From NCBI GenBank assembly GCA_023078555.1, contig CM041198.1:9161836-9225835 (forward strand): a DNA stretch of 64,000 nt, written 5' to 3'. The stretch is from Ulva prolifera. Its lineage: Eukaryota; Chlorophyta; Ulvophyceae; Ulvales; Ulvaceae. Positions 2,982 to 57,724 of the stretch are shown piece by piece (within the stretch, counting starts at the first letter, position 1; each line of letters begins with the position of its first letter). The position numbers were made by a program, and so were the translations under genes. Under the pieces are notes generated by a model. The model did no database searches, was not told the DNA's origin, and worked only from the letters and a program-made list of their open reading frames with translations.

Positions 2982-4915
2982 GGGAGGCCTTCCTTTCCTG
3001 CAACAGGTGAGACAGGTTGGAGGAGGTTGCGACGTCTTCCAGCGTGCGCTCACCGCTGCGCAGCCCATCAGTAGGGCGTCTACTGCACAGTGCTCGCGCA
3101 AGTGGGCCAGGTCGCAGCACTCTCACAGCATGTGCGCACACCAGAACAGCGAACAGATCTATAGCAACAGGATGAACTTACTCTCCCATCTTGATGCCTC
3201 GAGGATTGACTATCAATGAGAGCTGCGCTGACTGCTCAACAAATGTCTGTAGCCGCCAAATCGAGTACTGCACTAAATAAATAAGGACCGCCAACGACAA
3301 ACATGTGCGTACATGTTTTCAATCGCGTTGCAGAGCGCATGGCACAGGAGCACACCTGCAATGGCAACCCGCGCGGCGCCGGGATGCTCACGCCGTTGTG
3401 GCTTCAAGGGGCTGGGATGAATGCATTGCCCTCGATGGGCAAGGAGCCTGTGGCACATTCTCTTGAGCAGACAATACGCCCTACATGCCATGCGTGAAGC
3501 ACTAGCGCCCTGAAGCAATTGACCAACAAGCTCCCACGTCACACTGTAGGCCCTTGACTCGAAAGACATATCTCAAAGAGATATGCAGCTGATTCAGCTA
3601 GCTATCAGCAGAAGAACGCATGCGCAGGCCGGGGAAGGCCGGAGTGGATGCACCACCCTCCTTTCCGCACACCTGGAGGGATGTCTGGGGCACTTCCCCT
3701 GACCCCAGGCTGCCCTATGCACATGCAAGCTCCGTCAGCTGACACAGCCGGTCAAGGAGGGGCTGCGGGTTGTTCGAAGGTGGCGTCGAGTGTCCCCGGC
3801 TCAGCGCCGCGTGTGTGTGTGAAACAGCCCGCCTTCGGATGTGAGGCCAGCGCCCTCTGCAGTGAGCCGAGGTGTCTGTCGAAGCTGTTCACTTTGCAAG
3901 GGACGCCTCAGGTCGCAGCGCAGCACAAGCTTCGGCTCGCCCTTGCAGCCGCACAGCCTATATAGATATCCCGAGCGTCCTCCCGGGAGTCCCGGCCGCA
4001 ACCGTAATCAGGGACATTTTATCGGTGATAGGTAACGGTGGGTGGCACACCCCACGAATCGACCAGTACAGAGCATTCTCATGCGTTCATGGCCACACAT
4101 GCTCCGCCAGCCTCTGCCGGACCTCCGGCCCCCGTGTGTCCCCCTGTGCAGACAGACTGCACGGCCGCCCTCCCAGCCCCTGTGATGCATGCAGGCACCC
4201 GCCTCTGCCCTCAGCGCGGCAGCTCAGGCTCAGCCGGGCGTTGGCGGGGCGGCTCTCACCGCTGGCGTCGGTGCCCGCTTCGCCACTGTCCATACTCGTG
4301 CACAGCCGCAGCATGCGCAGCCTGATGGGACAGCCTGTGAGCCAGGGCAGATGCGAGGAGGGCACGGCGCCGACGGCCCCTGAGCTGTCCCTCTGCGATA
4401 TGACCTGGGTGAGCCGGCACTCGAGCTCCAGCTTGCTTGCGCTCGAGGCTCCGTGCAGACCTGGGCGCCGAGTCAAGTTACGATGTCCTTGAACTCTACC
4501 TTTATTTGTTTGTGACGGTTCATACCATGGACCTGGTTGATGGGGTTTCTTCCACGCAATGTCACTCGATGAGACGCTGCAGCGGCGGCCGCTCTGGCGG
4601 CGTGGCAGCAACGGAGCCGTGGCGACAGTGCGGCTGCCGCAGCGTGCACGTGCAGGGGCGTGTATGCGTGAGCATGTGCTGCGCTGGCGTTGACCCGTGT
4701 GCATGTCTGTCGAGGGCTGAGGAGTGGGGTGTGTGTGGCGGTCCTGTGGTGGCCGTGGGCGTGGAGTGTGGCGCCGTCATGCTGTGCATGGGGGCGATGG
4801 ACGGGTCTGACGTATGACGGCACCCGCTGGCGACGGTGGCGTTGCTGTGCTTGCACGGATCCCTGGCGGTGCTACCGATTTTGTCCTTGTAACGTTAACA
4901 CACATGAACATGTGT

Positions 4916-10017: not shown

Positions 10018-12954
10018 TCAGTCCTCCTGAAAGTCCGCCAGCCGCGGGTCACCCTCAAACGCCGCCCTCAGCCGCTCCCACCCCACCACCGCTTCCCGCA
10101 ACTGCGCCCCGGACTGCGGCTGAAACACATTGCGTGGCAACTCACTCGGCGCCGCAACGCCGACGTGGCGGCACACCCCCTGCACGGCCGCGAGGGGATC
10201 ACGGCACACCCCCTCATACGTAAGCCACAGCACCCCCTGCCCCGCTGTCACCTTACGCACGTATGCGTAATACTCATCGTACGTGTCAATGCTCCGCTGC
10301 AGCCCCGCGGGATCGATGACGACCTTCACGTCGTCAAGCGTCTTGTGCGTGAAGGCGCCGGTGACCGCGGCGCGAAGCCGAGACGCGCACACCGCGAGCC
10401 GGTTCTCGCGCACAAGCACCACCTTCTTCACAGCCGGGTCCGCAAGCACCTCTCCAAACAGCTCGTGGCTTGCGGTGGAGCGGCGGATGTGCTCCGGGAA
10501 GAGCTTGAACCCTACAGCGCGGCGGCTGCCGGGGCCGGCGGCCGCGCGCGGCGGCCGCGCGGCCAGAGCACGCAGCAGGAACCGCCGCGGCGCGGCGTCC
10601 CGGGCGTAGACGCTGCACATGTCCGCATCAACGCCACAGTGCGAGAACACGCCTTTCTCATTGAAGAGCTCGTTGTGCATTGCGATGTTGCGCACGCCAT
10701 GCAGCAGCCCACACAGCATGTTGGAGCCGGTGCGCTGCGTCGCGAGCACCACAAACGGCGTCCCGTTTGCGTCAGGGTCCAGCGGCAGTGCCCGGTCAGC
10801 GTACGCGACCTGCGCAGGCATCACGCGGCCCTGCCCACGCACCCACGCTCCCAGCGCGCAGCACAGCACAGCAACCAGCACGCCGCGTGCCCCTGGAAGC
10901 TCAGCAGCCGCGACAGCACAGAACCACAGCAGCAGCTTGAGCAGCAGTGTCACCTGGGTCGCGGCTGCGTGGTCCTCCCGGCCGGCCATCCAGTCAAACT
11001 GCTGCAGCAGCTGCGTCCAGCGACCCCGCAGAATCTTGCTCACCACACGCACCGTGTCCTGCAGCAGCGGCGGCACTGCGGCGAGAAGAGCCACCGCCGC
11101 AGCACGGTGCGCCGGCAGGTCCCGCGGCACCCGTGGAACATACGTCGCCACCGACATCACCACCTCCAGACACACCGCGATCAATGCCCACAGCGGCCGC
11201 TGCAGCAGCAGGCTGGCGAGCGAGAGGATTGGCCAGTTCGGCGGAGCCCAGAACATCATGCTGGGGTTGGTGTCCAGGCACAGCACATCGCCACGTGCCC
11301 ACCCGGCCACCTGCCGCAGCGGGCGGCGCCAGAACGGGTGCTCAACGACAGCGCCAGGCACCGCCACAAATCCGTGACCGACGTCGTGTGCGAGCCGCAG
11401 GCAGAAGTCTACGTCCTCCCCGCCGCCGCTGCGCGGGAACTGGGTGTCAAACCACACGCGGTTGTTTGTCCGAGCCCGCACGCACAGGTTTGCGGTGACC
11501 CCCCACGGCGGCGCCGCCATGCGCGCCGCGACGCCGTAGAAGAAACAGATGTTGCAGGCCACGAGCGCGGCCTGCATCAGCGTCGCCGGCGGCGGCAGCC
11601 GCGTCACGCCGACGAAGCCCGCGGCGTCAGGGTTCCGAGCGATCGCACCCACAAACGCGCGCACGAGCGCCGCGTCCGGCACCACGTCGTCATCCAGCAG
11701 CACCGCGTGGTCGCCGAAACTCTGCGCGAGGCCGGTGTTGCGTGCCATCGACGCCCCGAGGTTCTCGCGCATGACGTGCACGCGCACGACCCGGTTCGTG
11801 GCGTGCGACGCCAGCGCCTCGATCTCTGGAAGCTCTGCAGCATCAGGGCGGTCCACCACGATCAACGTCTGCAGGGACACCACGGCTCCGCCCTTCGTGC
11901 CGAGGTCGGCAAACGCCCGCAGCATCGCAGCATCGCAGCGGAACGTCGGAACAACGATGTCGAGGCACGGCACCCGCGCAGCACGCACAGCATGCGCGCC
12001 GCCACAGCGCGCGTCCGCGGTGAGGAATCGCTCCAGTGCCGCGATCGCATCTGTGAGGATGTCATCGCGCCAGACGAATTCCCCGGCCTTTGCGTAGCGT
12101 GCAGCCGCCGCGCCGCCGACGCGGTTGCGGAGCGCGGCCGGCAGCGGCGCGAAGCGCGACGCGCCCCAGCGCCGGTACACCTCCCACAGGAACGGGTCCC
12201 CGTGCTGGTTCTTGAACTGCCGCGGGAAGACCTCCCCAAACACCTCCAGGTGCAGCCGGTGGAGCACCGGGAACGTCGGGAATGCCGCAAAGCTGTGGTC
12301 CCGCACGGCCACACACGCGCAGCCGAACGGCAGCCCGGTGTCGTCCGCGATCACGGCAAACTCGCCCTCAACTGCGGCCTGCCAGCCCGGCGCATCAAAG
12401 TGGACGTCGTCGCCGATGAGGAGAAACAGATCCGCCGCCGCGAAGTTCACGGCGTCTTGCGCGAGCTTCGCCCAGATCCAGCAGATGTTGCCAGCGTACG
12501 CCGGAGGGAGCCGCTGTAGCCGCATGCGCACATCCCCGGCTGGGGGGGATAGCAGCGCAGCCAGCCGGGCATGGCCGTCATCGGTGTCCAGGAGGGGATC
12601 TTTCATGTCGATGGCTGCGTAGACCGTGGTGTACGGGGCGTGGGAGGGGGAGATGCTGGAGAGGAGCAGCCGGGAGGTTTCGGCAAGCGCATCCCAGAAG
12701 GCCTCGGGGGAGGTGACGCCGCGGGAGGTGATGGGCAGGAGGAGGGCCCAGTGCAGGGGGCCGGAGGGCGGCTCGCGTGGGAGCGCGGGGTCCCCGGCGG
12801 GCGGACCCGCGTCAGAGGGCGGCGGTGTGCCGGGGTCAGGGGTGGTGGTGGGGCTGACACTGGAGTTGTGGGAGGACTGCACTGCCGCGGTGTCCTGACT
12901 TTGGGCGACCCCTACACCTGTGCACGGTGGGAGCTGTCTAATAATATCCGGCAC
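10018..12954 (-). CDS. Glycosyltransferase - sulfotransferase fusion protein, intronless
   Basis: A single uninterrupted frame of 978 codons. Residues 1-60 are Pro/Ser/Thr-rich. Residues about 65-310 resemble a GT-A domain with FLLIGDDV near 181. Residues about 328-570 form a family-2 glycosyltransferase: LDIVVPTF near 332, the acidic LLDDDVV near 421 (nucleotide-sugar/metal binding) and GGEDVDF near 514. Two hydrophobic stretches follow (about 576-601 and 667-705), and residues about 730-978 are a sulfotransferase with the PAPS 5'-phosphosulfate loop VLATQRTGSN near 735 and a 3'-phosphate motif VVLVRENRLAVCAS near 842. The likely role is building and sulfating a glycan in the Golgi or at a membrane; substrate unknown. 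Absence of introns contrasts with its neighbours. ATP sulfurylase is encoded 3 kb away on the same strand. The start is the first Met of the frame. Confidence 0.8.
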   Translation of the reverse strand: MPDIIRQLPPCTGVGVAQSQDTAAVQSSHNSSVSPTTTPDPGTPPPSDAGPPAGDPALPREPPSGPLHWALLLPITSRGVTSPEAFWDALAETSRLLLSSISPSHAPYTTVYAAIDMKDPLLDTDDGHARLAALLSPPAGDVRMRLQRLPPAYAGNICWIWAKLAQDAVNFAAADLFLLIGDDVHFDAPGWQAAVEGEFAVIADDTGLPFGCACVAVRDHSFAAFPTFPVLHRLHLEVFGEVFPRQFKNQHGDPFLWEVYRRWGASRFAPLPAALRNRVGGAAAARYAKAGEFVWRDDILTDAIAALERFLTADARCGGAHAVRAARVPCLDIVVPTFRCDAAMLRAFADLGTKGGAVVSLQTLIVVDRPDAAELPEIEALASHATNRVVRVHVMRENLGASMARNTGLAQSFGDHAVLLDDDVVPDAALVRAFVGAIARNPDAAGFVGVTRLPPPATLMQAALVACNICFFYGVAARMAAPPWGVTANLCVRARTNNRVWFDTQFPRSGGGEDVDFCLRLAHDVGHGFVAVPGAVVEHPFWRRPLRQVAGWARGDVLCLDTNPSMMFWAPPNWPILSLASLLLQRPLWALIAVCLEVVMSVATYVPRVPRDLPAHRAAAVALLAAVPPLLQDTVRVVSKILRGRWTQLLQQFDWMAGREDHAAATQVTLLLKLLLWFCAVAAAELPGARGVLVAVLCCALGAWVRGQGRVMPAQVAYADRALPLDPDANGTPFVVLATQRTGSNMLCGLLHGVRNIAMHNELFNEKGVFSHCGVDADMCSVYARDAAPRRFLLRALAARPPRAAAGPGSRRAVGFKLFPEHIRRSTASHELFGEVLADPAVKKVVLVRENRLAVCASRLRAAVTGAFTHKTLDDVKVVIDPAGLQRSIDTYDEYYAYVRKVTAGQGVLWLTYEGVCRDPLAAVQGVCRHVGVAAPSELPRNVFQPQSGAQLREAVVGWERLRAAFEGDPRLADFQED

Positions 12955-13234
12955 ACTGAATGAGATCGAATGTACTCCGAGTAGCTTTAGGCTAGCCTAG
13001 GGGTAGCTAGCTTGAGGTGCATGCTGCTGTTGTTCAGGAAGCCATCAACTTTCGACTGACTCGGGCGATGCAGGGCACTGCAGTACATGCTTCCTACTAC
13101 ACCTCCTTTAGTTCTACGTGCACATTGATCTGCTTCACCATATAGCAACAGAAGGGCGGCATCCTATTATGCTCACAAGCCAAAGTGTGCAACAGGGCGT
13201 CCACATCTCCCTGTCTAGCTCTGCGGGCAGCACT
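12955..13234. other. Short intergenic region upstream of the fusion gene
   Basis: Presumed promoter side of the sulfotransferase fusion gene. No TATA box was recognised. It contains GCTAGCCTAGGGGTAGCTAGC, an imperfect GCTAGC-ended inverted repeat. Confidence 0.3.
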
Positions 13235-36373: not shown

Positions 36374-37364
36374 ATGTCGCATCGCCTGGGCTTGGTGTTC
36401 CTGGCTATCGTGGCTCTTACGAGCTTGGCATTTGGTGCGTTTGGCCACAGCGCTCCCTGCGATTTTCCGGAGCGCAGATAGTGCGGCCAATTCCTTTCAC
36501 ATGGCCGTAGCCGTCGCAGCACTGCGACCTGCATAATTGTAGCAAGTGCCCCTTTTTAGCAAACTTCTGCGGCTGATGACTCCGCTGGCTCACTCTGTTG
36601 TACTCTGCACAAGCACATTTCCACTTTCGAAGGAAGCATGCACAATGTTGTGCGATCTTGACAAGACCCACGTTCTGTCCTCAGTTTCAGTTGGCGAGCC
36701 ACCGGCCCATACAGCAACCACAGTGCCAAACCTCAGAATCCATTAGTTTCAAGCAACAAACACGGAATGTGGACGGGGACATGCAGCTGGAGTGCTACTG
36801 CGTTTGATCACATCCCCCCCGGGCACACAGACTCTGCGCCACCAGCTGCTGCCCCCCACACCACAACCTCCACCGTCGGCTACGCTCCTGTAACACACCA
36901 CCTCATCCCTGTCCTTGCCCACATCACAGCAGCCACCGACACTGCGCCACACGTGTGTAGCCTCCGCGCAGCGCGGCTTCGTCTCTGCCCCCATCCGCCT
37001 GGGTCCCAGCCCGCCCTCCAGCACCTGCGGCGCCAACTGCTGCCCCTCCAACCGCATCTGCATCTGCGGCGGCTGCTACGACCCCATCGGCCCCATCCCC
37101 TCCTGCGCCGCCCCGGGCCCCTTCATCGTGTACAGCTGCTGCGACGACCTCGGCACGCCGTGCAACCGCTGCAACCGCCAGTGCTGCCTCGGCGAGGACA
37201 CCTGCTCCTGCAAGGGCACCTGCCTGGCGCCGGGCTCGCCGCAGCCGGCCTGCACCCCTGACGACTTTGGTGTCTTTGGTGAACCGGTGAGGAACTGCTG
37301 CGAGATGCCCGAGACGGGGGAGCGGTGCTCCGGGCCGCCGCTCAAGGCAACAGCGGATTGGTGA
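36374..37364 (+). CDS. Secreted Cys-rich protein A (one module)
   Basis: Two exons. Exon 1 (36374-36434) is a signal peptide, MSHRLGLVFLAIVALTSLAF, ending in phase 1 at a GTGCG donor. Exon 2 (36961-37364) completes ASAQ, a good signal-peptidase site, for 154 residues in total. The mature part is one Cys-rich module of about 100 residues with 20 cysteines: CGANCCPSN, CICGGCYDP, VYSCCDDLG, CNRCNRQCCLGEDTCSCKG, then RNCCEMPETGERCSG. The two halves of the module resemble each other (NCCP..-CxCGGC-..-CC and QCCLG..-CxCxGxC-..-CC). Secretion is predicted from the signal peptide. Function is unknown; wall or matrix, metal-binding or defence roles are possible. It is the smallest of three tandem paralogues. 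Confidence 0.8.
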
Positions 37365-39983
37365 AAGGAGGTGTGAAACGAGGTGTGGGGTGACACGGGT
37401 ATCATGCGCATCGGTGGAGCAGGGCGGGGGGGCCTGTCTGGCTTGACCCAAGCGACGGTGACGGGGCTCTGACGGGTGGGGCGCGGTCGTAGATGGGACT
37501 CTGTAGGTTGCACGCTCGGCGCCTGGACAACACTTAGGCCTGTGTATTTGTACTTATGGCATTCTGGTGCCTTGGCGACTGTGAGGAATGTTGGACAGAG
37601 TCCATTGTTGAGGATTGTATTTGTTTTTGGCGTGCCTTGTGAAGTGGAGGGTGATGTTTTGCTGGAACATGGGAAGGAGTACTCCTTCCTGCGTGTAATG
37701 AGTGACGACCTCATCAGGCGTTTGCATTCTGCGTGCGCTCGATTACCACCAAAAACAAATCCAATCCTTGGTCCACCAAAATTGCACGGCGCCACACACA
37801 TGGCCGAAATGCTGTCCTTCATCCCGTTATCTTGTATCGTTCGGTCTTCTGATTTCCTGATGGATGCCTGTCTCGGACGGCGTCACTCTTGAGCACTGAA
37901 TATAATGAAATTGTGTCGGCATTGAATGCATGGCTTACGTAGAAAGCTGATGAGGCCCTTTCGCAAGGCCGAAACAAGTATCATCGGTCCATGATGCACA
38001 TGTAAGCAGCACCCAGCTGCGAGCGTTCTACCTGTGATAGTACACCACGAGGCTGACCAGGCATGCATGCATGCCAGCGCCTGGTGCAAGAAGCAGGCGG
38101 AGGCGCTGTGGCAGCGGCTGCCGCCGCAGGCCGAGCGCTTGCACTCACTCAGTGCGCTGTGACACTAGAAGTGCATGAGCATGACTGACACGTCAAGTAT
38201 TCTGCTTCGAGGGCCTGCGGTGGCGGTAGCAGTCGCATCGACGGCCCCCTTCTCCGGAAGCGTGGCGTCTCTTCTGGAACTGCGCCACCTGTGTGTCGCG
38301 CTCTGTCCGGCGTGGGGTGCGGCCGCCGGCTGCAAGGCCTGGTGGCGATGTGTCATAACTGCCGAAGTGTTCTCGCTCTGCAGTGCGGGGTTGGAGCGGG
38401 GAGGGCTCCAGGAGCGCGGCCGTGGCCTTGCAGGTGGGAGTGCCGTTTCGGGATGGGAGGCTGGGGCCCGCCTGTGTGCCGAGTGAGCCTGGCGTTGGCC
38501 GGGCGGCCTTGTGTGGAGTGGCCTTGTGTGGAGATGCGTCAGCGGAGTCTGTGACGATGTTGTGTGCGCGGAGTGTTCCTGTGTGCTTTGCTGTGTGCGT
38601 GGGTGTATGCCAGTTGTGATAGCGTCGAGCTGTGTTGATGGTCAATGTCTGCAGTTTCAAGTCTGTGACCTTGTCTTTGTAACACAGATGCCTGTGTCAC
38701 CAGACCCAGTACCAAAGCCGAATTCGCATCCTCGAGGTTCAAGCATTTCCTTGCGACCACGTTGCATTGAATTCAAGGCAGATGTGCTGGACATGCCAGC
38801 TACACCACGACCTGTTTCAAGTGTACCCCAGAGAGCTCTCAGAGAGCTACATCCGTCTCAGATCAGGCATAACCTGGCGCTCTTTAGACTTTATCTGTGA
38901 TATCTGATGCTGGCATTGTCTACATGCGTAATGATAGCGTCTGGGCCCGTGTTTTGCACAAGTGCTGCGGCGTTTGTCACCACGTCCGAGATTGTGGAGC
39001 AAGCCTGGATCCGGCATACGTACTTGGCAATGGGCAGACTTGACTGTCGGAAGGAGCTTGAGGTTCGAGCTCGGTAGCTCGGTCACAAAAAACGCTGCGC
39101 GTAAGACCTGGTGTGTCTCTACCTATTTCCAGGCTGCAGCTGAGCGAATCAGCACGACATTCGAGAGCAGCTCCTTACGACCGTCCAACTTTCCCGTTGT
39201 CGTCGGGTATCTCGAGGTAAGTTCGGCTTAGGCGTGGAGTGGATCCGAAGTCGACCTGCAGCTGGCCAGCGATACATCTGACCGGCACCGCGCGGGCTCA
39301 ATGTCAATGACACATCTGAGAGGCCTGGCTAGTGCAGGAAGACGTCCGTGTGTCAAGTCATGCACCTAATTAGAATGCCAGCTCTGCTGTCGAAATGCGT
39401 GCTATTCTCAAAACTGCAGTGCTCATCACGGGCTTGGTCGACCCAATCGTGTGGCCCTGTAAGATCGATCTCCAGCAGTAGCATACTCTACCAGTGCTAT
39501 TGCAAATCAAGCTTACGCCAGCCTTCGGATCGCGACATGCGAAGTTCATGCCGCATCACAAGATCACTGTAGCGCATTACGCCAAGGCCTTTGGGCCTGG
39601 CTTCATGCACCAGGCTACACGTGGCATTGGAAGGTGACTGAGGAGACGACGAGATACGTTGCGATAGATTCGAGAGCGTCAATCTTTGCCGATGCTTGCG
39701 GAGGCCGCTGTCCTTCGGGTGCATGACCACAGCGCAGCTGCGTTTAAACAAGAGGTGCACGAGCGTGGGGCTGCTAACAGAAGACGCTCGGCAGAGCGCA
39801 ACTACATGAGAGTTTTGAGAGTCTCCTGAACGTCCTCCTGAGCTCTGGCATGAGGACGTTTCCTGTTAGCCGGTGATGGAACACGGATTGCTCGCCTCAC
39901 TGCTCCGCGCAGCTGTCCAGCTGTAGACCGACAACTGCTGATATCAGCATACCTTGACTACATAACGCATCTAGTGATTGAAC
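37365..39983. other. Intergenic region between Cys-rich genes A and B
   Basis: No additional Cys-rich module or other gene was found in 2.6 kb on either strand. Confidence 0.5.
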
Positions 39984-42578
39984 ATGAAGAGCTGCCGCTC
40001 TTTGAGCGCGATGGCGCTGCTGCTGCTGGCGGTTCTGCCAGTGCTCGTGGAAGGTGCGCATGCGCGGCACCGGTGCGGCAGAAATGATGCTGAAACTCTC
40101 GAGCCTCATCAGCACGACTGAGGCAGCGCTGCACAAGCATACTGCCAGCATACCGTAGTTCTGAGTCTCTGGTTTCCGGAGTGACGGCAGGATGCATATC
40201 GCCGCGTGCACAACGCTAGCCCAACGAGTGTTCGCAGCTGTCCGCTCGCTGCTGCCAGGATCTGGCATGACACAGATTGAATCATCGCCGCGAGCTCGAG
40301 TGCGAGGCGCCTCAGCATGCCGCGCGCACATTCCGCTGACAGATGCATACTAGTGTCATACATATGTAAACTCTGTCAGCTGCAGCTGGGCTGTGTTCGA
40401 CGTGCCTGTGGCCGCACGCGCAGCACTAGGTGTTGTGCCTGTGCACAGCTTGGTGCGCACCGGTAGCCACGGACGCAAAGGACACCAAATCGGGCATGGG
40501 CCGGGAAGCATCAACATCAACAGCACGAACGCTGAAGGATCCCACAATGGAAGCCACCCAATCTCACTCATGCACATGGGATATCACTGCGTACATTGAT
40601 GCATGGATATGCAACTGAGCTGGCTGTTCCACGTGGCTAGGTATATATACCTAGCTAGGTGGACATGGTGCGTATACTGCAGTATGGCACCCTACACGCA
40701 GTCCACGCAACACCTGACCGCCAGCTGTGCGCCATATGCAGGCCAGACGAGCGGCCGCGGCTTCCGCGACAGGCTGTGGAAGCGGCGCCCCCGCCCAACA
40801 CCTCCCCCGGAACCCAGCTGCTCCAACTGCTGCCCCTCCAACCTCATCTGCGTCTGCGGCGGCTGCTTCGACCCTGAGGGGCCCCTCCCCTCCTGCCCCC
40901 CGCCTCCCCCAGAGGTCGTCTACACCTGCTGCGACGACGTCGGCGCCGAGTGCAACCGCTGCAACGGCGACTGCTGCCTCGGCGACGACATCTGCCTCTG
41001 CGGTGGCTGCTTTGACCCTAAAGGGCCGCTCCCCGACTGCCCCGAATTCTTCCCGCCTCGCAACGAGTGCTGCAGTGGCAGCGAAGTCGAGGAGCGCTGC
41101 TCCGGGCCCCCCGGCAGCCCGCCTCCCCCCCCACCCCCGCCACCCCCCACCGGCGACTGCGGCAAGGACTGCTGCCCAACGGAACTCTCATGCATCTGCG
41201 GCAGCTGCCTGGACCCAGACGGGCCGCTGCCGGTGTGTGCCGCGCCGCCGCCCGGCACGGTATACACCTGCTGCGACACAGAGGGCGCTGAGTGCAACAA
41301 GTGCAACAGTGACTGCTGCCTCGGCGATGACATTTGCCGCTGCGGCGGCTGCTTTGACCCCAAGGGCCCGCTGCCGCTGTGCCCCGAGACGTTCCCGCCG
41401 GGCAACGAGTGCTGCTCCAACCGCGACGTCGCGGAGCGCTGCTCTGGCCCCCCCAAAGGCCCCCCGCCGCCGCCCCCTCCCCCCCCTCCCCCCCCCTCCC
41501 CCCCCGCCCGGCCCCTGCACTGACGACTGCTGTCCCGTAGACTTCATCTGCACGTGTGGCGGCTGCTTCCCAGAGGAAGGCCCGCTGCCGGGTTGCGTCG
41601 CGCCGGAGCCGGGCGAGATCCGGAGCTGCTGCGCGAACGAGGGCTCCGAGTGTACCCTGTGCAACGCCGACTGCTGCCTCGGCAGCGACGTCTGCTCCTG
41701 CAAGGGCACCTGCCTCGCGCCCGGCGTGCCTCAGCCAGTATGCAATGACGATGAATACTACGAGAATGGAAACCCGCGAGTCAACTGCTGCCAGGGTGCA
41801 GACAGCCGCGAGCGCTGCGCCGGAACGCCCCCCGACGACCCCCCTCCTCCCCCTCCCCCCCCCACCACCGCCGCCGCCGTCAGATGAATGCGGGGACGCG
41901 TGCTGCCCGGTCGGGAAGAACTGTATCTGCGGCAGCTGCTTCGGGCCAAACGAGCCGCTGCCGCCGTGCGCTCCGCCGGGAGAGGGCATAGTGTACAGCT
42001 GCTGCGACGACCCCGGCGCGGAGTGCAACAAGTGCAACAGCGCCTGCTGCCTCGGCGACGACGTCTGCTCATGCAAGGGCTTCTGCATCAGCAAGGACGC
42101 TCGGGGGCCGGCCTGCGGCCCGGACGACTACGATGACCAGGGTTTCCCGAAGCAGACCTGCTGCGAGGAGGAGGGCGTCGGCAAGCGCTGCTCCGGCCCC
42201 CCCGACGGGCCGCCGCCGCCGCCGCCGCCACCCCCTCCTCCCCCCCCGCCGCCGCCAGCTGATGTGAAGTGTGGAACGGACTGCTGCCCGGCGAACCTGC
42301 GGTGCATCTGCGGGAGCTGCTTCGATCCAAACGGGCCACTGCCAGCTTGCGCCGCCCCGGGCCCAGGCATCGTGTACAGCTGCTGCGATGACGAGGACAC
42401 GCCGTGCAACAAGTGCAACGGGGAGTGCTGCCTCGGGGACGACGTGTGCTCGTGTGATGGCCGCTGCGTGAGCACGGACGAGCCGAAGCGGGAGTGTAAG
42501 AAGCGCAGCTTCCTTGAGGATGCAACGCAGTCGTGCTGCGAGAACGACGACGTCTTCAAGCGGTGCTCCGGAAAGTAG
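39984..42578 (+). CDS. Secreted Cys-rich multimodular protein B (five modules, two frame changes)
   Basis: Exon 1 (39984-40053) encodes a signal peptide, MKSCRSLSAMALLLLAVL..., ending in phase 1 at a GTGCG donor. Exon 2 starts at 40742 and runs to 42578. It encodes five modules of about 95-105 residues (from about 40820, 41158, 41515, 41888, 42267), each with the CC / CxCGxC / CNxCNxxCCLGDD / ERCSG pattern, joined mostly by polyproline linkers of 8-18 Pro. The reading frame is not continuous: it shifts by +1 within the C-tract linker at about 41455-41515 and again at about 41830-41870. Removing one base at each would give about 634 residues. Cys spacing is intact in all modules on both sides, so these look like homopolymer indels (assembly error or recent mutation) rather than old decay. 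Proline linkers recall algal hydroxyproline-rich wall glycoproteins. Confidence 0.75.
40636..40655. repeat. Perfect 20-bp palindrome in the intron of Cys-rich gene B
   Basis: GCTAGGTATATATACCTAGC is perfectly self-complementary, about 90 bp before the exon 2 acceptor. Role unknown. Confidence 0.9.
41455..41515 (+). other. Polyproline linker C-tracts with first reading-frame change
   Basis: Runs of 8-9 C separated by T encode the linker between modules 2 and 3 of protein B. The upstream frame runs into a TGA at 41521-41523, while module 3 is read one frame further on. The position inside mononucleotide runs makes slippage or miscounting the simplest cause. Confidence 0.8.
41830..41870 (+). 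other. Polyproline linker C-tracts with second reading-frame change
   Basis: A C9 run near 41855 lies in the linker between modules 3 and 4. The module 3 frame ends at TGA 41885-41887, while modules 4 and 5 are read in the next frame to 42578. It is the same sense of shift as at the previous linker. Confidence 0.8.
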
Positions 42579-45048
42579 ACACATCTAACAAAAAAATTGT
42601 TTTTTTTTTAATTCAACTTTTTCTTTCATTTCAAGAGCTGTTCTTAGCAGGATGCGTTGAGGCTGCAGGATTAGGGCAAGTTCATGCTAGGGCATTGGCG
42701 AGTGAGGTGCGTGTATTGTATAGCTGCAAGGGTCGCCCTGATCCGGCTCTGATTGGCCGCAGTTCGGGCAGGCCGAGGTTTTACAAAGGTTGGGCTCACG
42801 TAGCTGATTGCAGCCAGGTCTGGAGGTGGCTAGGCTGCATGGTACAACAGCTGCGTGGGGCGAGGCAGAGTTGTTGATAGCTGACTGGGTACCACCAACA
42901 TGCACACCATATCTCAGAGATAGATTGGCCAGAGCGGGTGCGGCCGAACGTGCCTATTGATTTGATTCATCCGGCAGCTGGCCATGTCATTTTGGACCTT
43001 GTTTTGCACTCGAATATACGAGACCAATGATACTATACAGTTAATGCAGGGCGGTAATTTTTTTCCACTGAATTGCGCTCGTGTTTTTGAAAGCACCAAA
43101 GGAAAGCCTCTGCAGTCCATTTGCTGTGTTCATGTTTATGAGGCACGTGTGCGGCCTCCCCACGGAGATAGCTGCAGCGGCGGGCCAGCCCCGAAAGTGG
43201 AGCTGATGTAGTGCCGCATCAGTCTGCATTCACTGCAGTCAGTCTCATGTGGTCGCCCACCACACCAGACAGCGGGTCACTTCTGACCTGTAGTGACATT
43301 CGACGGCCAGGCAGGTTGTGCGTGCCCTCAACTCTGCTCCAGCTGCTCCAGAGCCACTTGCGCTCATTCACATGATCCCACCGGAGCAGGTTGACTGCGT
43401 CGCAAGCACAGAGTTGGCTGTGTGATGGGATGGCACCACGGCGTCGAGCGTGTCCCACCAGCCCCACCCTTGCCTCCGTGAACGAGGCTATGACCGGCAT
43501 GGGGAGGCAAGGGTGGGCAGGCGCACACACAGACCCACAGCCATGTCCTGTAGCCCATGCGGAGCCTCCTTCTGGACATCCACGCCGTGGATTCCACGGA
43601 GATTGTCATTGTAAAGTAAAGTAAAGAGTATCCGAACATACTGAGCCGCATCCTGTAGAGGGAATCGATGGATAGGCACCGCAACCATGACTCAATGTCA
43701 CAAGGACAGCGCAGACCTGGGCATGTGGCAATGAGCCACTCACCCAACTCTAGCCGACAGTGCCGCTGGAGCGTGTTGCAATGGTGACACTAACCACACT
43801 CACTGCTGGAGCAGGTTGCGTTGAGCCGGGTTGCTGGTTGGATTCTTGACCTGCTTGCTGCTTCCGCGGTGCTGCCCGCCGCGCCATCTTCATCCTCGTA
43901 ACACTCACTGCTGGAGCAGTCCTTGCTTGCACTATGACATGCGTGACTGCAATGCAGCACGTTGTCCTGGCAAAGCCATCATCCAGCCGACATGATGATG
44001 CTGGCTCAACTGGTGACCTGTGAAGCAGATGATGAATCCAAAGAGAAACACTCAGACACCACGCCTCGCCGAATCCAACTGGTCCACATTCTGCATGTCT
44101 ATCCCAGAAACTCGGTGCCCCGGAGCGGGCCCACACTTGGACAGAAATTCGTAGATGCAATATTGTATGTTTGTCATTGGCACGATTTGTCACGCCGGGA
44201 ACTACCATGGCTGACAACAGTGAATACACTGGTGACCAATGCGCCTGCTCTTCGACTTGGAACACCTGGCCAATGCTTTAGCATTGGCCTCCTACGTGTT
44301 CAATGATAATGATGAGCGCAGGCAACTACAGCGTGCCGTCGCTCACAAGTGGTCGACCTCACAAGTGGTCTGCGTGCGCTTTGCTGGGCTCGCGCTGATA
44401 GGTTCACGTGCCATATCCAGCCAGGCTACGCCCCTGGAGAGTTGCATACTTTGATGTTGTGGCCAGTACGTGGGCGCGTTCCTCACGCATTTCCCCACAC
44501 GTTGCGGCGCGGGCATCGAGTGACGGTGTCAGCGCAACAGCGGACCTGCCTGCTGCTGCCTGCATGCTCCGGTCGCCCAGACCTTGGCTTTCAGTGTGCC
44601 TCAATAGTGAAGCACCTGACGGCGCTCGCGTGCACAAGCGTTGTTTACACGAGAGGCGCGAACCTGTGAAGCCGCTAGACGGGAGCGGAGCCATCTATCT
44701 TCGCATCGGCCAGGGCCGGAGAGGATACGACACGGATGCACGAGCATGGCATCCTCATGGAACAGTTCGCAACAATGCTTCATGTGACATGCCCGACATG
44801 TCCCCGCATTTCTCACCGGACCTGCTCAAGCCAGCACGCTGCTCCGTGACAGCATATAAGCGCAGCAATCTGATCACAGGGCATGAGCTTTCCCGATTCA
44901 AACATCTACACTATCACAGACACTGCAGATCAAATTGCTTGCATAGCTCCTGAAGATCGCAAGACCTATAGGAACGCTTTAGCTTAGGAACGGCCCGGCC
45001 TGGGTACGGCAAAGTATACAACAACACGTTGCACCAAGATACACAGAC
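42579..45048. other. Intergenic region between Cys-rich genes B and C
   Basis: No gene is supported. It contains A7 and T9 runs shortly after the gene B stop (42590-42610) and an inverted copy of the SINE-like 3' tail at 43607-43654. Confidence 0.45.
43607..43654 (-). mobile_element. Second copy of SINE/LINE-like 3' tail
   Basis: On the minus strand this reads AGGATGCGGCTCAGTA, then a variable segment, then TTTACTTTACTTTACAATG. It aligns with 1137-1179 on the plus strand. Similarity upstream of AGGAT was not evident by eye, as expected for two elements sharing only a 3' end or for a heavily 5'-truncated copy. Confidence 0.45.
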
Positions 45049-46575
45049 ATGAATCGCAGTGGACAGAATATCTTGCGTGCTGGCTTGGCCTTGGTACTGG
45101 TCCTTGGTCTAGTCCTGGCGCCAACAGGAGGTGCGAAGCTCGACACGAAGTGCCCGTATATCGAATGGCCCGCGCCAAGCTGTAGCTACTTTGACATGAT
45201 CGGTGGCCGGGTGGTAGCTCTGCACACGTGGAGATGCATACCGCTGGACGCTCTGATGACCCCCATGTATCGCGGGCGGTTCGTTCTGCGGCTCATTCCC
45301 ATGCTGGCCTTACCGGTCATAGACATCCGCACTCCTTTAAAGCAAGCATCGGTGTTCCCCACGTCCTCCTTGTGGCTGCGATGTACCGTATATATACCCC
45401 ACTCCAGAAAACATGGTCTTGTGAGAGCGATCGATCCTTCCAACACTATCTCTATAGAGATACTGCTGTGCGCATAGGGAGGGACTGCATGGTGCCGAGA
45501 GCAACGCGATTTGACCTTGGCGTTGTGCTCAGCAAGACACTTGAAAACCCGTTCAATCAGGCATCACGGCATACGATGTACGCACCTGCCGCAACAACCG
45601 TGGGGACGAACAGCAGCTACCAGGTACCTGTTGCATCAATTGCAGAGGACCTCGATTCAGTGTGTGTCACTCGCCATCTGTGTTCTGCACACCTCCTCCC
45701 GCACAAGGCGCCCGACCCAGGCATCATGACATGTTCCCCGTAATTGCCCTATTGTATGTGACTCCGGTGTGGCTGCAGTTCCTGCAGCCAAGGTCTCAAC
45801 CACCAAGAGGTCCTCCAGCTCCACCACCACCCACGGCAATGCCACCGTCTCATTCACCACGTCCTCCTCAGCCACCGTCAGCCGCACGCCGCCCACCCCC
45901 TCCAGCGACACCTGCTCCGAGTGCTGCCAGGCCGACGAGGTATGTGCATGCGGTGCATGCCACAGCGCCTCGGATCGCGAACCCCGCACCTGCGCGACTG
46001 CCAACGGAGGGCCCCCGCGCAGCTGCTGCGGCAACCAGGACAGCAAGTGCACCCTGTGCAACGCTGACTGCTGCCTCGGTGATGACGTGTGCTCCTGCAA
46101 GGGCACCTGCCTGTCGCCGGGGGATCCGCAGCCGGAGTGCACATCTGCCGATTTCTTTAGCAACGGCAACCCAAAGAAGACGTGCTGTTCTGGCCGCGCC
46201 GCCGAGCGCCGCTGCAACGGGCAGCGGCCACCAGAGCCGCCGAAGCCGCCGGCACCAGAGTGCGAGCGCGACTGCTGCCCCGTCGGGATGTTCTGTTCAG
46301 GGTGCGGGCAGTGCTTCCCGGACGGCGCCATGGCGCCGCTCTGCGGCTTCCCCCCCGGCGTGCAGGTCAGCTGCTGTGATGACGACGACAACCCATGCAC
46401 CCGCTGCAACGCCGACTGCTGCCTGGGGGCGGACCAGTGCTCTTGCAAGGGTACATGCGTGGCGAAGGGCGACCCGATGCCGGAGTGCGGCCCAGAGGAC
46501 TACAACGACGTCAATGGGCTGCCGAGGGTCAACTGCTGCGAGGGGGACGCGGGGGCAGACCGCTGCGCCGTGGTA

Positions 46576-46607
<32 letters not shown>

Positions 46608-47280
46608 GGCCGTGGCGTGCCAGGGCGACTGCTGCCCGGAGGGCTCCTCATGCATTGGCTGCGGGCAGTGCATCCGCGACGGCGACGAGCCGCCGCAGTG
46701 CGACTTTGCCCCTGGCGTGGAGCTCTCCTGCTGCAGGGCCGATGAATTCGACACCGGCGACGAGCGGTGCACCCTGTGCAACGCCGACTGCTGCCTCGGC
46801 ACCGACACCTGCTCATGCAAAGGCGACTGTGTCGCCGCGGGCCAGCCGCTGCCGGAGTGTGGGCCAGACGACTACTACGAGGAGACCGGCTTGCCGAAGC
46901 GGAACTGCTGCAGCGGCGAAGTCGGGCTCGCCCGCTGTGCGGACATCCCCCGGCCAGTCACCTGCAAGAGTGACTGCTGCCCGCGCGGAATGAAGTGCTC
47001 CGGCTGCGGTGAATGCGTGCTTGACAGCGATGACAGCATGTGCGTTGGGTACTTTCCAGGCGCGCAGATCAGCTGCTGCGATGATGTGGGCAACCCGTGC
47101 AGCCGCTGCAACGCCGACTGCTGCCTGGGGACTGATGTGTGCTCGTGCAAGGGCACGTGCGTGGCGGAGGGCGGCCCGATGCCGGAGTGTGGGCCCGAGG
47201 ATTACAACACTATTAATGGGCTGCCGAGGGTGCACTGCTGCGAGGGGGACGCGGGGGCGGAGCGGTGCGCGGTGGTGTGA
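45049..47280 (+). CDS. Secreted Cys-rich multimodular protein C (four modules)
   Basis: Exon 1 (45049-45130) encodes a signal peptide, MNRSGQNILRAGLALVLVLG followed by LVLAPTG, ending in phase 1 at a GTGCG donor. Exon 2 (45779-47280; an acceptor 9 bp later at 45788 is equally possible) completes about 527 residues. A Ser/Thr-rich stretch (likely O-glycosylated) precedes four modules: about 45920-46215, 46257-46572, 46615-46950, 46966-47277. Linkers are short or Pro-rich (11 Pro before module 3). Each module repeats DCCP..., CGQC or CGAC, SCC, CTLCNADCCLG and SCKGTC, then N-CC and a final RC. Modules 2 and 4 share long stretches, including MPECGPEDYN and GLPRV, indicating recent duplication. 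The frame is intact. TGTAA lies at 47494-47498. Function unknown. Confidence 0.82.
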
Positions 47281-51300: not shown

Positions 51301-54114
51301 TGCTTGCTGGCGCCGCGGCAGCGCAGTAGCCGCACTACTGCAGCATGTGGACGTGTGTGACACGATGATCTGAAAGCAACCACATGATAAGAGTGCTGGA
51401 CTTGCTTCATTTGAGCGAGTTCCATTGGAGACCGTGTCTCACCTGGTACTGCTGATCCAAGGAGTCACCCACGACCCTGAGCTCTGACGAGCAAGGTCTG
51501 TATTGAAGATTGAAGCCCGAATCCAAGGGCAACATGGCTGCTGTGCAGTGCGGCTGACCGTAGACGGTGTACTCGAATATGGTAGGGAAGGGGTAGATAT
51601 CTCGAACCTGCAGTACAGGCCCCCTCCGGGCGCGAGCCATCGCAGCTCTCCACAGCGCACAGCCACGTGCCACACACTCCTTGTGGTTCATCGTACTGCA
51701 TGAACAGCATTTCCTGTGTAGCCACTGCAAGACACTGTCAACAGCAGCGAGCACCAGGTGTGTGACATGGGCCACAAATTTTCCTCACACAATAGTTCGT
51801 GATGCAGCGTCTAGACGCAGATCTGCGCAGCCCCCTCTAGACGCAGATCTGCGCAGCCCCCTATCTCGAACCTGCAGTGCAGTGCCGCTATGCACACGCG
51901 CCTCGGCACAGCTCAGCAGTGGCCATCTGATGACATGCGTGGATGGGCGAAAACATGACAAATGCATGATCAGTTTCCTACGCCGTACGAAGCCAGTATC
52001 GATGGTGATCACGTGGAGGACTTTTGAGCATCTGGTAGCCTTGACAGTGCTCAACATGCGGTGGTCAGCAGCACGGTGCTAGAAGCTTTCTCATGTGACC
52101 TGGCACCACGCACCAATACTGCATGAATCAGATGCCCAACATGCAGACAACCAGTGGCAGAGGAACATGCCTCCTGGGATCCGTGTCCAGCGCAAATGCG
52201 TCCCGTATGGCCCGGACGACGGCCGGCGTGCGAGAGGCTCCCCCCAGCCTCTCAACGGAGCAGATGTGACATGCGCGCAGCCCGGCCTGCTGCAGTGCGC
52301 GTTCGCATACCACCTTGATCTGCTGGATGAGGTCTGAGCACAGGTTGTCGAATAGCTCAATAGAGACTGCAGAGCTGCACAGCACACAGATGGGTTGATC
52401 CAAAAATGGTAGTCCCGGCTGGAGGAATGATTGCCAAGCGATGAGCTCGAGGATGGGATGCACAGACAGTGCTGCTTGAGTGGCAGCTCTCACTTTTGTG
52501 TCACAGGACTGCCGTCAGCACACATCCCCACCAGCACACAAACATGGACACCGCATGCAAGAACACCGATCAAGAAGGATGCCAAATGTCACCTTGCCTG
52601 CAGAGCCATGACACGTTTTGTGCTTTGCCTGAGCTCATCATCGCCACAAAATCAATTTACACTTGCAAAGTGTGTTCTGGGGCTCGACAGGGCAAAGTTT
52701 GCTTGAAAATACGAGTGCCACACCTGAAGTCATTGGCGGCTGTAAGGTTGTCAACGTTGATGTATGACCTCCTGCTGGCTGTCAAGAGTTCACGGCAGCG
52801 TGATACCTTCGACATCAGCTTGACTCGAGCTCTGCTGTTGCCTGCAATGTCGCCGCCAGTCTGTGCCTTGAACTCCGATGCAAAGTGCTCGCAGAGCAGC
52901 CAGTCCATGTTACGCCCACCAACATTCTTGTTCCAGCAGTGAGCCTTGACTGTGATCCAGCTTTTGGTGAAGGCAGCAATGCAGACCTGCATCCACACGG
53001 ACGCTTGTAATGTACAGGTCGTCCCGTTGTGACTGTACTGACGCCTGGGTCAACAGGTCACGCTGCTGGTGACTCTGTGGCACTTCAGGATGCTGGTGCA
53101 ACATGTTGGCCAGCAGAGCATGAAGGCATGAAAGCAAGCCTGATGCCATCATTTGAACGCTTGGAAGATGGACGCATGCAATGCACAGTGGTATACGTAC
53201 ATGCATACGCGCACGGAGCCGCATGGGCCATAGTGATGCATGCTACTAGTAGATCATTGGTGGCTCAGCAGAGCGATCGCATCGACGCTGACTTCCGCCT
53301 CTGGTGCATGGGGCTTCAGCATGAGCTAGGCTCACTCGCAGACAACTCCCCTGCCAGAGGGATGAACAAGCAGATTTTCCTCGGGCAGAGACAAGCAATG
53401 CATGGCTTCAATTCCCTGCCGGTCATTACGTACATCTTCTGACAGAATGCAGGAGATTTGTTCACACGGAGGCAGCCGGCCCACCTGAGTTGCAGAGTGC
53501 CCAACATCAACGAAAGCCACATGCTTGGGGGCACATCCGTCCTCAGGCAGGTCAGCCCTCGAGGCTCCCCACCACACGGCAGCAGCTGTCAGCTCATGCA
53601 CCAGGTACACACTCTCGAGGCCTGCGACCTCTGCAGCAGCAAGCACCGCAGAGCGCTCTGCCTGGCCGTAGAAGCAAGGGATTGACAGGCCGTAGGAATG
53701 CACGCGCGTGCCGGCACCAGCGTCCGCAGTTTCCTTCAGGTTCTTCATCAAGCTCACCATCACCTGCTCAGGTCTGAAGACCACATCCGAGTCATTCTGC
53801 GCCTGGGGCACAGAGATCAGGCATGAACCGCCGTCTACACTCTGCCTCACATCGTAGAGCAGTGCATTCTTGTCCTGCAGAGTGAGGTGCGGCCTGCCGA
53901 TGAGCCTCTTGACTTCAGTGATGGTGCGGTTTGGAGTGGACGCAAGCATGGTGGATGCCTTGTACCCCACGGCTCGCGAGTTCTCCCCGTAGAAGACCAC
54001 GGACGGCGTCTCACGCAGCCCATCAGCGTTGGTGAGTATCGTTGATGTTGCAGCCGCTCCTCGGGCTAGGGCCACACAGGACGTGGCATTTCCGATGTCA
54101 ATGCCGACCGACAT
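48369..54114 (-). CDS. Hsp110/Sse-like Hsp70-superfamily chaperone
   Basis: Probable nucleotide-exchange factor and holdase of the Hsp110 branch. Seven minus-strand exons join in consistent phase: 54114-53485, 52986-52724, 52374-52167, 51724-51476, 51234-51049, 49882-49658, 48869-48369, about 753 residues. N-terminus VGIDIGNATSCVALARG and the segment EVKRLIGRP are typical of the Hsp110 ATPase, as are HVAFVDVGHSATQV, NVGGRNMDWLLCEHFASEFK, VERLGGASRTPAVV and ECVARGCAL. A beta-domain remnant follows (RRIAVVTLKPVG), then a helical segment ERMQQRDVIQDKKERDRNLL typical of the Hsp110 C-terminus. The first three exons are secure; junctions at exons 3/4 and 4/5 and the last exon are less so, and part of the beta domain seems missing. 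It diverges from the Hsp70 gene at 55417. One intron holds a hAT-like MITE. Confidence 0.7.
50135..50589. mobile_element. Non-autonomous hAT-type MITE, 455 bp
   Basis: The ends are inverted repeats: CAGAGTTGCATTAATACG at the left and CGTACTAATGCAACTCTG at the right, 17 of 18 bp matching. Perfect 8-bp direct repeats AGAGCAAA flank the element (50127-50134 and 50590-50597). An 8-bp target duplication with ends starting CAG is the hallmark of hAT transposons. The interior is AT-richer than its surroundings and contains further sub-terminal ACGCGTAT and AACGTAC motifs in both orientations, but no transposase frame. It sits in an intron of the Hsp110-like gene, between exons at 51049 and 49882. 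Confidence 0.85.
51810..51861. repeat. Tandem 26-bp duplication
   Basis: Two perfect adjacent copies of a 26-bp unit beginning TCTAGACGCAGATCTGCGCA lie in an intron of the Hsp110-like gene. The unit contains CGCAGATCTGCG, itself a 12-bp palindrome. Confidence 0.92.
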
Positions 54115-54793
54115 GGGGCACAACAACGATCTACAGCAGGCTGGCTTCAGCTCACTATCGCAGTATGTATACTGCCGCAGCTGTTCAGTGAAGAGGTCAC
54201 AATGCTACAGCACAGTGATGGGTCTTGGGAAGCCTGTCAGCTTCAGAATTTTGTGAGGGTCTGCCAGATCTAGCCTTCGATTGTATGCCCTGCTGCTATG
54301 CCGAGCTCAAGGTAACATGAGAAGCTGTCAGGGCTAGACCTGCGTATTCAACACTGCTGTTGCGTGCCTGGACCTTGAATTTGCTGCTATCAAATCACTG
54401 GAAGAATCACTAGCTCAAAGAGCTGACACTGCTCCCCTGAACCGCAACCGATCAAGCTGATCTGATCAACGTCAGCTGAAATTCTGTGCAGCATATGTTC
54501 AGGCCACACATCGATATATGTTTGCTGTATGTGCCAGAGCCTGAACCTTTGTGGTTAAGATCTGTCTGTTCCAGCAGATACTGCTGTGGGAGACAAAGTG
54601 CACCTGACTGATCAGTCATGAGATCGGATTTTCCTCCCGGGATACCCTTCCAAGTGCTGAAAACCACACCCTACCGTATATGACGAACTGAAGGCAGCAG
54701 GCTTGATGCCCGAACTGTGACTTCGTTCGGCTTTTGTCAATGCTTATCGTGGTGTGCCGGCTGTTGAATGCGCAGAATGTACACGTTCTATAC

Positions 54794-55416: not shown

Positions 55417-57724
55417 ATGCCAGCCATTGGCATAGACCTCGGGACCACGCACTGCTGCGTCGGGGTGTGGCAAAACCGCGCTGGCACGGACGAGGACGAG
55501 CGCGTAGAGATCATCATCAATGATGTTGGCGGGCGGGTGACGCCATCGTGGGTCGCTTTCACCGACACCGAGCGCTTGATTGGCGCCCCGGCAAAGGAGC
55601 AGGCGTACAGGAACGCGGAAAACACGTGCGACCTCCTGCACTCGTGCGTGGCCATGCCTGCAATATAAGGCAATTTCGCATGTAGACACGGTCGTCTACT
55701 GTCGCTCTCGATCTTTAGGGTCGACCAGCTTTGAGGCCCTGACAGTGCTTCAAAGCCTTGACAAGCTGACCAAGTAAATCCACATGTGCTGTGTGCTTTA
55801 CATATGCACTTTAAGCGTGTTTGCCATGCATCCGCTCACAGAGGCCGGCCCATGGCCTGACCTGCGTTGCAGGGTATACAATGCGAAGCGCCTGATCGGG
55901 CGTAAGTTCTCCGACGAGGTCGTGCAAGCAGACATTCCGGCCTGGCCGTTTGAGGTCGTCGCAGGCCCGGACGATGCCCCGCAGATCAACGTCATGCACG
56001 GTGGCATCCCCCTGCACCTCGCCCCCGAGCAGATCTCCGCAATGCTGCTCACCAGACTCAAGGCATACGCCGACAGCGTCCTCGAAGAGGAGACCACGCA
56101 GCTGCCGGCGGTCATCACAGTGCCGGCACACTTCTCAGACCGCCAGCGCGCCGCCACGAAGGCTGCCGGTGAGATCGCGGGGCTGCGGGTGCTGCGAATC
56201 ATGAGTGAGCCGATGGCCGCGGCCCTGGCGTGCGAGGTGCAGAGGTCTCGGCCTCACAAGAGCAAGGCTCTGATCTATGACCTGGGTGGCGGGACGTGCG
56301 ACGTCTCGGTGCTGGAGATCGGGGCGGGGGCGACGCGGGCGCTCGCAGTCACAGGCGACTCGCACCTAGGCGGTGAGGACTTTGACCAGCGGCTTGTGGA
56401 CTACCTGCTCGAGGTGGGAGCCCTTGCAGATCCCTAGTTCAGTGCAGCTGCACGCAGGCTACCACGGCCAGCATCGTCGTGAATGAGACGCGGGAAGACG
56501 CTTGTGCGGTATCTGTGGCCGCGCTCCCTTGCTGAAAGCATATCACGCGCCACGCACATCCCAGCGCGACGCCTGCACACTCATATAGTTTCACATAAGC
56601 GTATGGTCTCACGGTATGTTGTCAGCATCGTGAAAAGCAGTACCAGATCGCTCAGACATTCATCCTCGCACTTCACAGTGTGTGGGAGCTGCATACAGCG
56701 CTGCAGTGCGGGCAGATGGTCAATTGCACTTGCCTTGCTCAGCTTGCTGCATGCATCCGCCGCACGCACATGCCAAGCCGCAGCTACTGTCCACCGCAGC
56801 CCCCTCACCTCATTCTCATGAGCTTCACCGCCAGCTCACAGCAGAACCGGAAAGTCGCTCTTTCACCGGGTGCAGGAGATCCAGGAGAAGCACGGCATCG
56901 ACCTCTCGGGCAACCCCCGGGCTCGGAGGCGCCTGCAGGGCAAAGCAGAAACGGCCAAGTGCACCCTGTCCACAAGTGAGACCGCCACCATTGACATCGA
57001 CAGCCTGCTTGGCGGTGACGACTTCCACACGGTGGTCACTCGCGTGCGCTTTGAGCACCTTTGTGCCGACCTCTTCACGCGCTCCATCGCCCTCGTCACC
57101 TCGTGCCTGGAGGACGCCGGGCTGGAAGCTGAGGGCATCGACGAGGTGGTGCTGGTCGGCGGCTCCACCCGCATCCCCAAGGTTCAGGCGCTGCTGCGGC
57201 AGGTGTTCGCCGGGAAGAGGCTGAACAAGCGCATCAACCCGGACGAGGCGGTGGCGTACGGCGCGGCGGTGCAGGCCGCGATGCTGGCGGAGCGCCGGCC
57301 GTGCTCGCTGCAGAAGCTGGCGGTGCAGGACGTGACGCCTCTGTCTCTTGGCATCGGCCTGCATGACGGGACGGTGTCGGTCGTGATCGCCAAAAACACC
57401 CGGACGCCTGCGGTCGTGACACGGCGGAACTTTGCGGTGCCTGCGGGGTGCTCGGGGGTGGTCATTCCGGTGTATGAGGGGGAGGCGAGGCTTGCCCGCA
57501 AGAGCCACTTCCTCGGGGAGTTTGCGCTGGTGGGCCTGCCGAAGTGTAGTGCTAGCTCGCGGCAGGTTGTCGTGACATTTGAGATTGATGCAAACGGGCT
57601 GCTGGCTGTGAGAGCTATGCACAACGGCAGTGGAAGGTGGAGGCAGATCCGAGTTGCTCAAAGGCATGGTGGCCCAACGGAGGAGGAGATGAAGAGGATG
57701 AAGAAGGAAGCAGAGCAGTACTGA
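55417..57724 (+). CDS. Cytosolic-type Hsp70 lacking the C-terminal lid
   Basis: ATP-dependent chaperone of the Hsp70 family. Three exons join in phase: 55417-55625, 55873-56413, 56876-57724, 532 residues (usual length about 640). Landmarks: [15 protein letters not shown] (phosphate loop 1) with an extra stretch RAGTDEDE before RVEIIIND, then [86 protein letters not shown] and the interdomain-linker region [10 protein letters not shown], followed by the beta substrate-binding domain. The protein stops at [14 protein letters not shown], where helix A of the lid would begin, so the helical lid and EEVD tail are absent. No further exon was seen. TGTAA at 57816-57820 supports a real 3' end. A heat-shock element lies upstream. 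Confidence 0.88.

Follow-up and report, generated by a model that had tools for sequence, protein, structure and literature searches.

Which kind of protein is encoded by three neighbouring cysteine-rich genes of the green seaweed Ulva prolifera, and how their present structure might have arisen, is the question raised by the stretch of DNA analysed here (the window), i.e. 64,000 nucleotides of contig CM041198.1 of assembly GCA_023078555.1, corresponding to C3:9161836-9225835 in an 88.9-megabase (Mb) genome of 44 contigs; the guanine plus cytosine (GC) content across the window is 53-69%. The three genes lie on the + strand and share a module of about 100 residues with 20 cysteines (Cys), present in ten copies (one, five and four, respectively), and this module is the tandem duplicate of a unit of about 50 residues and ten Cys. 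It represents a real domain family at one Ulva locus, undescribed within the libraries and literature searched and perhaps restricted to the Ulva lineage. As to its role, we suggest, giving the idea an even chance, that the genes code for disulfide-bonded, polyproline-linked secreted proteins of the Ulva matrix or wall, similar to chimeric hydroxyproline-rich glycoproteins (HRGPs).

Internal duplication and divergence of the module

The ten modules (named hereafter by gene and order) are located in the window as follows:

37026-37334, + strand, gene 1, one module
40819-41106, 41158-41448, 41516-41824, 41889-42197 and 42270-42572, + strand, gene 2, five modules
45913-46221, 46261-46572, 46618-46944 and 46963-47274, + strand, gene 3, four modules

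A six-frame scan of the window with a short motif gave 11 matches, that is the ten modules (all on the + strand) and one at 26301, where the Cys frame is absent and which we consider a chance match. In agreement with the original prediction, each module holds 20 Cys, and all 200 of them are in place in the ten-module alignment, where they make up 20 of the 27 invariant columns (out of 111). TGT codes for 16 of the 200 Cys and TGC for the remainder, so that silent change has occurred at the sites of a residue that never changes. The GC content at third codon positions (0.81-0.94 vs 0.52-0.65 at the first two, in the five module stretches tested) is a coding signature. The modules contain 18-21% Cys, with four CC pairs and 1-2 CxC each, and are acidic (net charge from -3 to -15).

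The 20-Cys module had been regarded as the basic unit; it does exist, but the basic unit has ten Cys, and its duplication had been overlooked. All ten modules split into two halves (A and B) of ten Cys each, with the pattern C-x(2,3)-CC-x5-C-x(1,2)-C-x(2,3)-C-x(8,10)-C-x(9,15)-CC-x(6,11)-C and with typical spacings of 3,0,5,1,2,9,10,0,6 in the A-half and 3,0,5,1,3,9,14,0,8 in the B-half. The local alignment of the A-half and B-half profiles obtained with hhalign had an expectation value (E) of 1.1e-8 and a score of 39.6 and covered nine of the ten Cys; in the global run (E 3.6e-7) all ten were in register, as they were in the 20-row alignment of the halves. A score of 39.6 was reached by none of 100 column-permuted controls (maximum 20.3) and by none of 100 controls with the Cys kept fixed (mean 16.7, maximum 35.4), and the reversed control scored 9.2. 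The signal becomes weaker once the A-like B-halves 2.1B and 2.2B are removed (score 28.5, E 5.4e-6), a value that no column-permuted control and one Cys-fixed control, out of 100 each, attained (mean 16.6 and maximum 29.3 for the latter). These permutations imply that the Cys frame supplies part of the duplication signal and the other residues the remainder. Concerning the Cys spacing, four of the 362,880 permutations of the nine gaps fit as well as the observed one, but all four are the observed ordering itself, which ties make appear four times.

The B-half of modules 2.1 and 2.2 contains a CGGCFDPKGPLPxC text resembling that of the A-half, the stretches concerned being:

40849-40896 and 40993-41040, module 2.1
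41191-41238 and 41335-41382, module 2.2

The two B-halves share 40/48 and 37/48 bases, respectively, with their own A-halves, which may be the result of a later conversion.

The expansion of modules within genes and of genes in tandem, as previously proposed, is real but local, involving ten modules at one locus. In the tree of the modules, 2.1 and 2.2 are paired (support 99) and 3.2, 3.3 and 3.4 are grouped (99), while 2.3 falls with the gene 3 group with a support of 58, which becomes 87 once 3.1 is added; this grouping suggests that the divergence of some of the modules may predate the separation of the genes. The idea of a fast-evolving family applies to part of the module. Over module pairs, identity is 100% at the Cys positions and 37% at all the others, so that the latter do diverge, but the Cys frame is frozen, and the ratio of nonsynonymous to synonymous substitution rates (dN/dS), computed for seven of the 45 module pairs, was 0.21, 0.25, 0.30, 0.32, 0.46, 0.51 and 0.74; as an average between paralogues, this indicates that the non-Cys positions diverge under constraint. 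The locus thus offers a clean example of the growth of a Cys-rich domain through the duplication of unit, module and gene.

Gene models, linkers and reading frames

The existence of three adjacent genes with one, five and four module copies behind signal peptides was correctly predicted, the signal peptides being hydrophobic N-termini judged by eye in three predicted gene models, whose exon joins are predictions from the DNA sequence alone. All three genes share the same architecture, that is a short signal-peptide exon, a phase-1 GTGCG...AG intron in the same position and one exon with all the modules. The GTGCG donors were picked among several in-phase options because they are common to the three genes, and the gene 3 acceptor at 45778 is likewise a choice among several in-phase acceptors. 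The features of the three genes are the following:

36374..36434, + strand, gene 1 exon 1, encoding the signal peptide MSHRLGLVFLAIVALTSLAFA, whose last codon exon 2 completes (in-phase join enumerated)
36435, + strand, gene 1 exon 1 donor, phase-1 GTGCGT
36961..37364, + strand, gene 1 exon 2, single 20-Cys module, then stop
39984..40053, + strand, gene 2 exon 1, encoding the signal peptide, with a phase-1 donor (GTGCGC) at 40054
40742..42578, + strand, gene 2 exon 2, five modules and polyproline linkers in three reading frames
41449..41515, + strand, gene 2 linker 2/3, poly-C tract with C runs of 7, 6, 8, 9 and 8, frame shift inside
41825..41888, + strand, gene 2 linker 3/4, poly-C tract with C runs of 6, 6 and 9, second frame shift inside
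42210..42257, + strand, gene 2 linker between modules 4 and 5, 16 prolines
45049..45130, + strand, gene 3 exon 1, encoding the signal peptide, with a phase-1 donor (GTGCGA) at 45131
45779..47280, + strand, gene 3 exon 2, four modules preceded by a Ser/Thr-rich stretch
46576..46608, + strand, gene 3 linker between modules 2 and 3, CCG repeat coding for 11 prolines

The predicted precursors of genes 1 and 3 have 154 amino acids (aa; 15.9 kDa) and 527 aa (54 kDa, 80 Cys), respectively; proline (Pro) runs of 8-16 residues occur in genes 2 and 3, and no C-terminal anchor was found by eye in the gene models. The signal peptides, the even Cys counts in fixed frames, the absence of such an anchor, the acidic modules and the rods of up to 16 Pro point to secreted, oxidised beads linked by rods.

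The five modules attributed to gene 2 are all present, but not within one open frame, since modules 1 and 2, module 3, and modules 4 and 5 are in different frames, with shifts after module 2 and after module 3, both within poly-C linker DNA. A usable GT..AG intron was not found by eye in the gene 2 linkers, and an intron was rejected, linker 2/3 having no GT and linker 3/4 only GTCAG, which is too short. Poly-C tracts with long runs are a common site of long-read errors. Because the shifts lie in linkers with C runs of up to nine bases, they are probably assembly errors. If the locus were instead decaying or partly artefactual, gene 2 would be truly frame-shifted, as its two shifts might suggest, and only two of its modules would be made; this appears very improbable to us, given that both shifts fall in poly-C tracts, that the modules past them retain 60/60 Cys, that third-position GC behind them is 0.81-0.86, and that genes 1 and 3 are open.

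Search for relatives

The whole modules 2.5 and 3.2 (searched at E 1) and 3.1 and 2.1 (at E 10) each retrieved all ten modules from the genome, the weakest with E 0.03, and none of these four queries matched anywhere else in the 88.9 Mb below E 0.05, a search that copies much under 40% identity could escape. One of them gave five weak extra matches (E 0.05-0.23), one at C6:2999446, which apart from that one were judged on score alone. A half-B query recovered all ten B-halves and a half-A query six of the ten A-halves, missing the four of gene 3. The weak half-unit matches at C6:2999446 (E 0.05), C4:3038242 (E 0.08), C3:2907828 (E 0.86) and C2:446561 (E 1.1) were discarded; their translations contain 3-5 Cys each, and the ten-Cys frame is absent from all four, although C3:2907828 is similar to the query along a short stretch, PLPSCAPP...CC.

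The original prediction that the module belongs to no recognised family holds within the libraries considered, i.e. Pfam, NCBIfam, the PDB sequences and, with a half-unit model, Foldseek. In Pfam, no credible match was obtained for the ten modules, nor for the 20 half-units and five longer pieces; the models of granulin, WAP, EGF, hevein, Bowman-Birk, STIG1, VWC and pherophorin, which we take to be Pfam-A families, matched 0/10, 0/20 and 0/5 of them, respectively. The rows for Kelch_2 (one module, E 0.02), DUF6094 (one module, E 1.2; one half-unit, E 0.22) and Plant_zn_clust (gene 2, E 0.027, under its cut-off) were judged to be due to chance, the HMMER filters losing most matches above E 0.1. 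The ten modules had no match in NCBIfam, and neither the two profiles nor the gene 1 module nor the four-module stretch of gene 3 had any among the PDB sequences with E up to 10.

The comparison of predicted folds had been proposed for the module as a whole, whose AlphaFold2 model (ten alignment rows) reached a predicted local distance difference test (pLDDT) of 54.1 and a predicted template-modelling score (pTM) of 0.30 and, at a pLDDT of 54, was set aside. The half-unit model (20 rows; pLDDT 81.3, pTM 0.55), used in its place, gave with Foldseek a best E of 8.9 in the PDB and of 7.3 among viral models.

Among bacterial and archaeal genomes, 11 stretches fit the single peptide pattern used and none was confirmed. 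Viral contigs gave 42 pattern matches, of which one was confirmed (E 1e-5 among candidates only); we regard it as due to chance, as it lies on the strand opposite to an open frame of 404 aa, in an apparent phage tail-gene region, and its matched stretch has two Cys in the frame translated. A description of the family was not found in the open-licence PubMed Central (PMC) literature, among the matches listed.

Possible role of the secreted proteins

Matrix or wall, metal-binding and defence functions had been considered together for this family. We infer the first of them and favour the other two less. According to this explanation, the products would be secreted, soluble modular glycoproteins. 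The unit of about 50 residues and ten Cys, presumably with five internal disulfides, would have been doubled into the 20-Cys module, which would then have been repeated within genes, like beads along rods of stiff polyproline, the genes being multiplied in turn by tandem duplication. The Cys would oxidise after entry into the endoplasmic reticulum and the prolines would probably be hydroxylated and glycosylated, and the acidic beads might serve the ulvan-rich wall, the surface layer or the settlement adhesive as a structural component that forms cross-links or depends on cations. The matrix glycoproteins of Ulva are described as "essentially uncharacterized" in PMC8307928; PMC10762512 attributes chimeric, and not classical, extensins to green algae and reports arabinogalactan proteins from Ulva, and PMC9266709 lists three extensin genes in the U. 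compressa genome and states that HRGPs are part of green algal walls.

A close likeness is with the chimeric HRGPs, chimeric extensins and pherophorins of the green algal matrix, which combine a signal peptide with Pro-rich linkers on Cys domains. A signal peptide is recognizable by eye in the three genes and a Pro-rich stretch in genes 2 and 3; however, the modules carry neither a pherophorin nor any other Pfam domain, have no SPPPP-type repeats and are far denser in Cys, each bead being a 10+10 Cys duplicate. The cnidarian minicollagens also place polyproline beside Cys-rich domains in the disulfide cross-linking of a wall, but the Ulva proteins have no collagen repeat and another Cys pattern, so that this is an analogy only. 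The EsV-1-7/IMMEDIATE UPRIGHT family of brown algae is also a Cys-rich seaweed family with an odd distribution; its Cys pattern differs, and our modules have no Pfam match. The architecture and the likely role are of a known kind, that of chimeric secreted matrix proteins, and the domain itself may be new. We advance tentatively, as a possibility falling somewhat short of probable, that a new disulfide-rich domain, the 10-Cys unit, was born in Ulva or the Ulvales, then doubled and strung on polyproline rods to give a separate class of wall or adhesive proteins, with its birth and duplications legible at one locus.

Several points weigh against the matrix or wall explanation. The family occupies a single locus, whereas volvocine algae have large wall-protein families; gene 1 has no run of at least six Pro, one gene 3 linker is short, and the linkers are plain polyproline, with isolated SPP and, ahead of one Pro run, a lone Ser in place of SPPPP repeats. 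The disulfide pairing, the hydroxylation, the wall location and the cross-linking role are presumed, the lineage restriction is drawn from null results in the prokaryote and viral collections and in the PDB, and the half-unit model is moderately confident, its better score possibly reflecting in part twice as many rows.

Small tandem modules with CC pairs in secreted Cys-rich proteins are also found in granulin and WAP-type proteins, from which the Ulva module differs in its 10-Cys unit with another spacing, doubled to 20, and in having no Pfam match. Bowman-Birk, WAP and granulin chains are the modular models for a role in secreted defence, in which the modules would be disulfide-rich protease inhibitors or antimicrobial modules and the Pro-rich C-x9-C loop an exposed reactive loop. 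Such proteins typically have small multi-Cys tandem modules and signal peptides and are duplicated locally in tandem, and in genes 1 and 2 a G/E-P-L/I-P loop lies between two Cys in the first half of the modules, 2.1 and 2.2 having it in both halves; nevertheless, no inhibitor or antimicrobial family was matched in Pfam, the acidic modules are unlike cationic antimicrobial peptides, and long polyproline rods are atypical of inhibitors. We consider a defence role unlikely.

The Cys content, the CC pairs and CxC motifs and the acidic residues might also fit the extracellular binding of Cu, Zn or Cd by secreted metallothionein-like proteins. In the same genus, the Cys-rich UcMT1-3 of U. compressa share the CC and CXC motifs and increase the amounts of Cu and Zn that bacteria accumulate but, at a length of 81-139 aa, contain 24-30% Cys and 7-9 CXC (PMC6981760); the modules, less rich in Cys, are not CXC-dominated and belong to proteins with a (by eye) signal peptide and polyproline linkers. 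Moreover, their fixed spacing, their conserved G, N, L, D, R and aromatic residues and their internal repeat resemble those of a folded disulfide domain. Since the Ulva metallothioneins look quite different, metal binding seems to us decidedly improbable.

The spores of Ulva adhere at settlement, and the modules might be cross-linked parts of the spore glue, a special case of the matrix or wall explanation. Rod-linked acidic beads rich in disulfides would be well suited to a secreted glue that has to cure, and among the open-licence PMC matches listed there was no adhesive protein sequence; on the other hand, the proteins are smaller than the adhesive glycoprotein of about 110 kDa. We attach to it the same small likelihood as to metal binding. 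The three genes are defined, expressible candidates for matrix glycoproteins in a green-tide seaweed; if the fold is indeed new, one more disulfide-rich scaffold would be added to those known.

A domain scan of ten open frames of the window revealed other features:

10021-12996, - strand, 992-aa open frame, glycosyltransferase domain of family 2 at residues 347-458 (E 4.7e-8) and Sulfotransfer_3 match (747-948, E 1.6e-4, under the curated cut-off)
53335-54204, - strand, HSP70 piece, profile positions 2-200
56822-57721, + strand, HSP70 piece, profile positions 233-517
1812-3122, - strand, 437-aa open frame, CCCH zinc fingers in four matched stretches

The first might be a glycosyltransferase-sulfotransferase fusion, of possible interest for ulvan synthesis, and the two HSP70 pieces, on opposite strands, are perhaps two genes. 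The plastocyanin of the genome (two PF00127 exons, joined by eye) is identical over 98/98 residues to PDB 7pcy, the protein of Enteromorpha prolifera, now Ulva prolifera, which makes U. prolifera or a close sister species the host.

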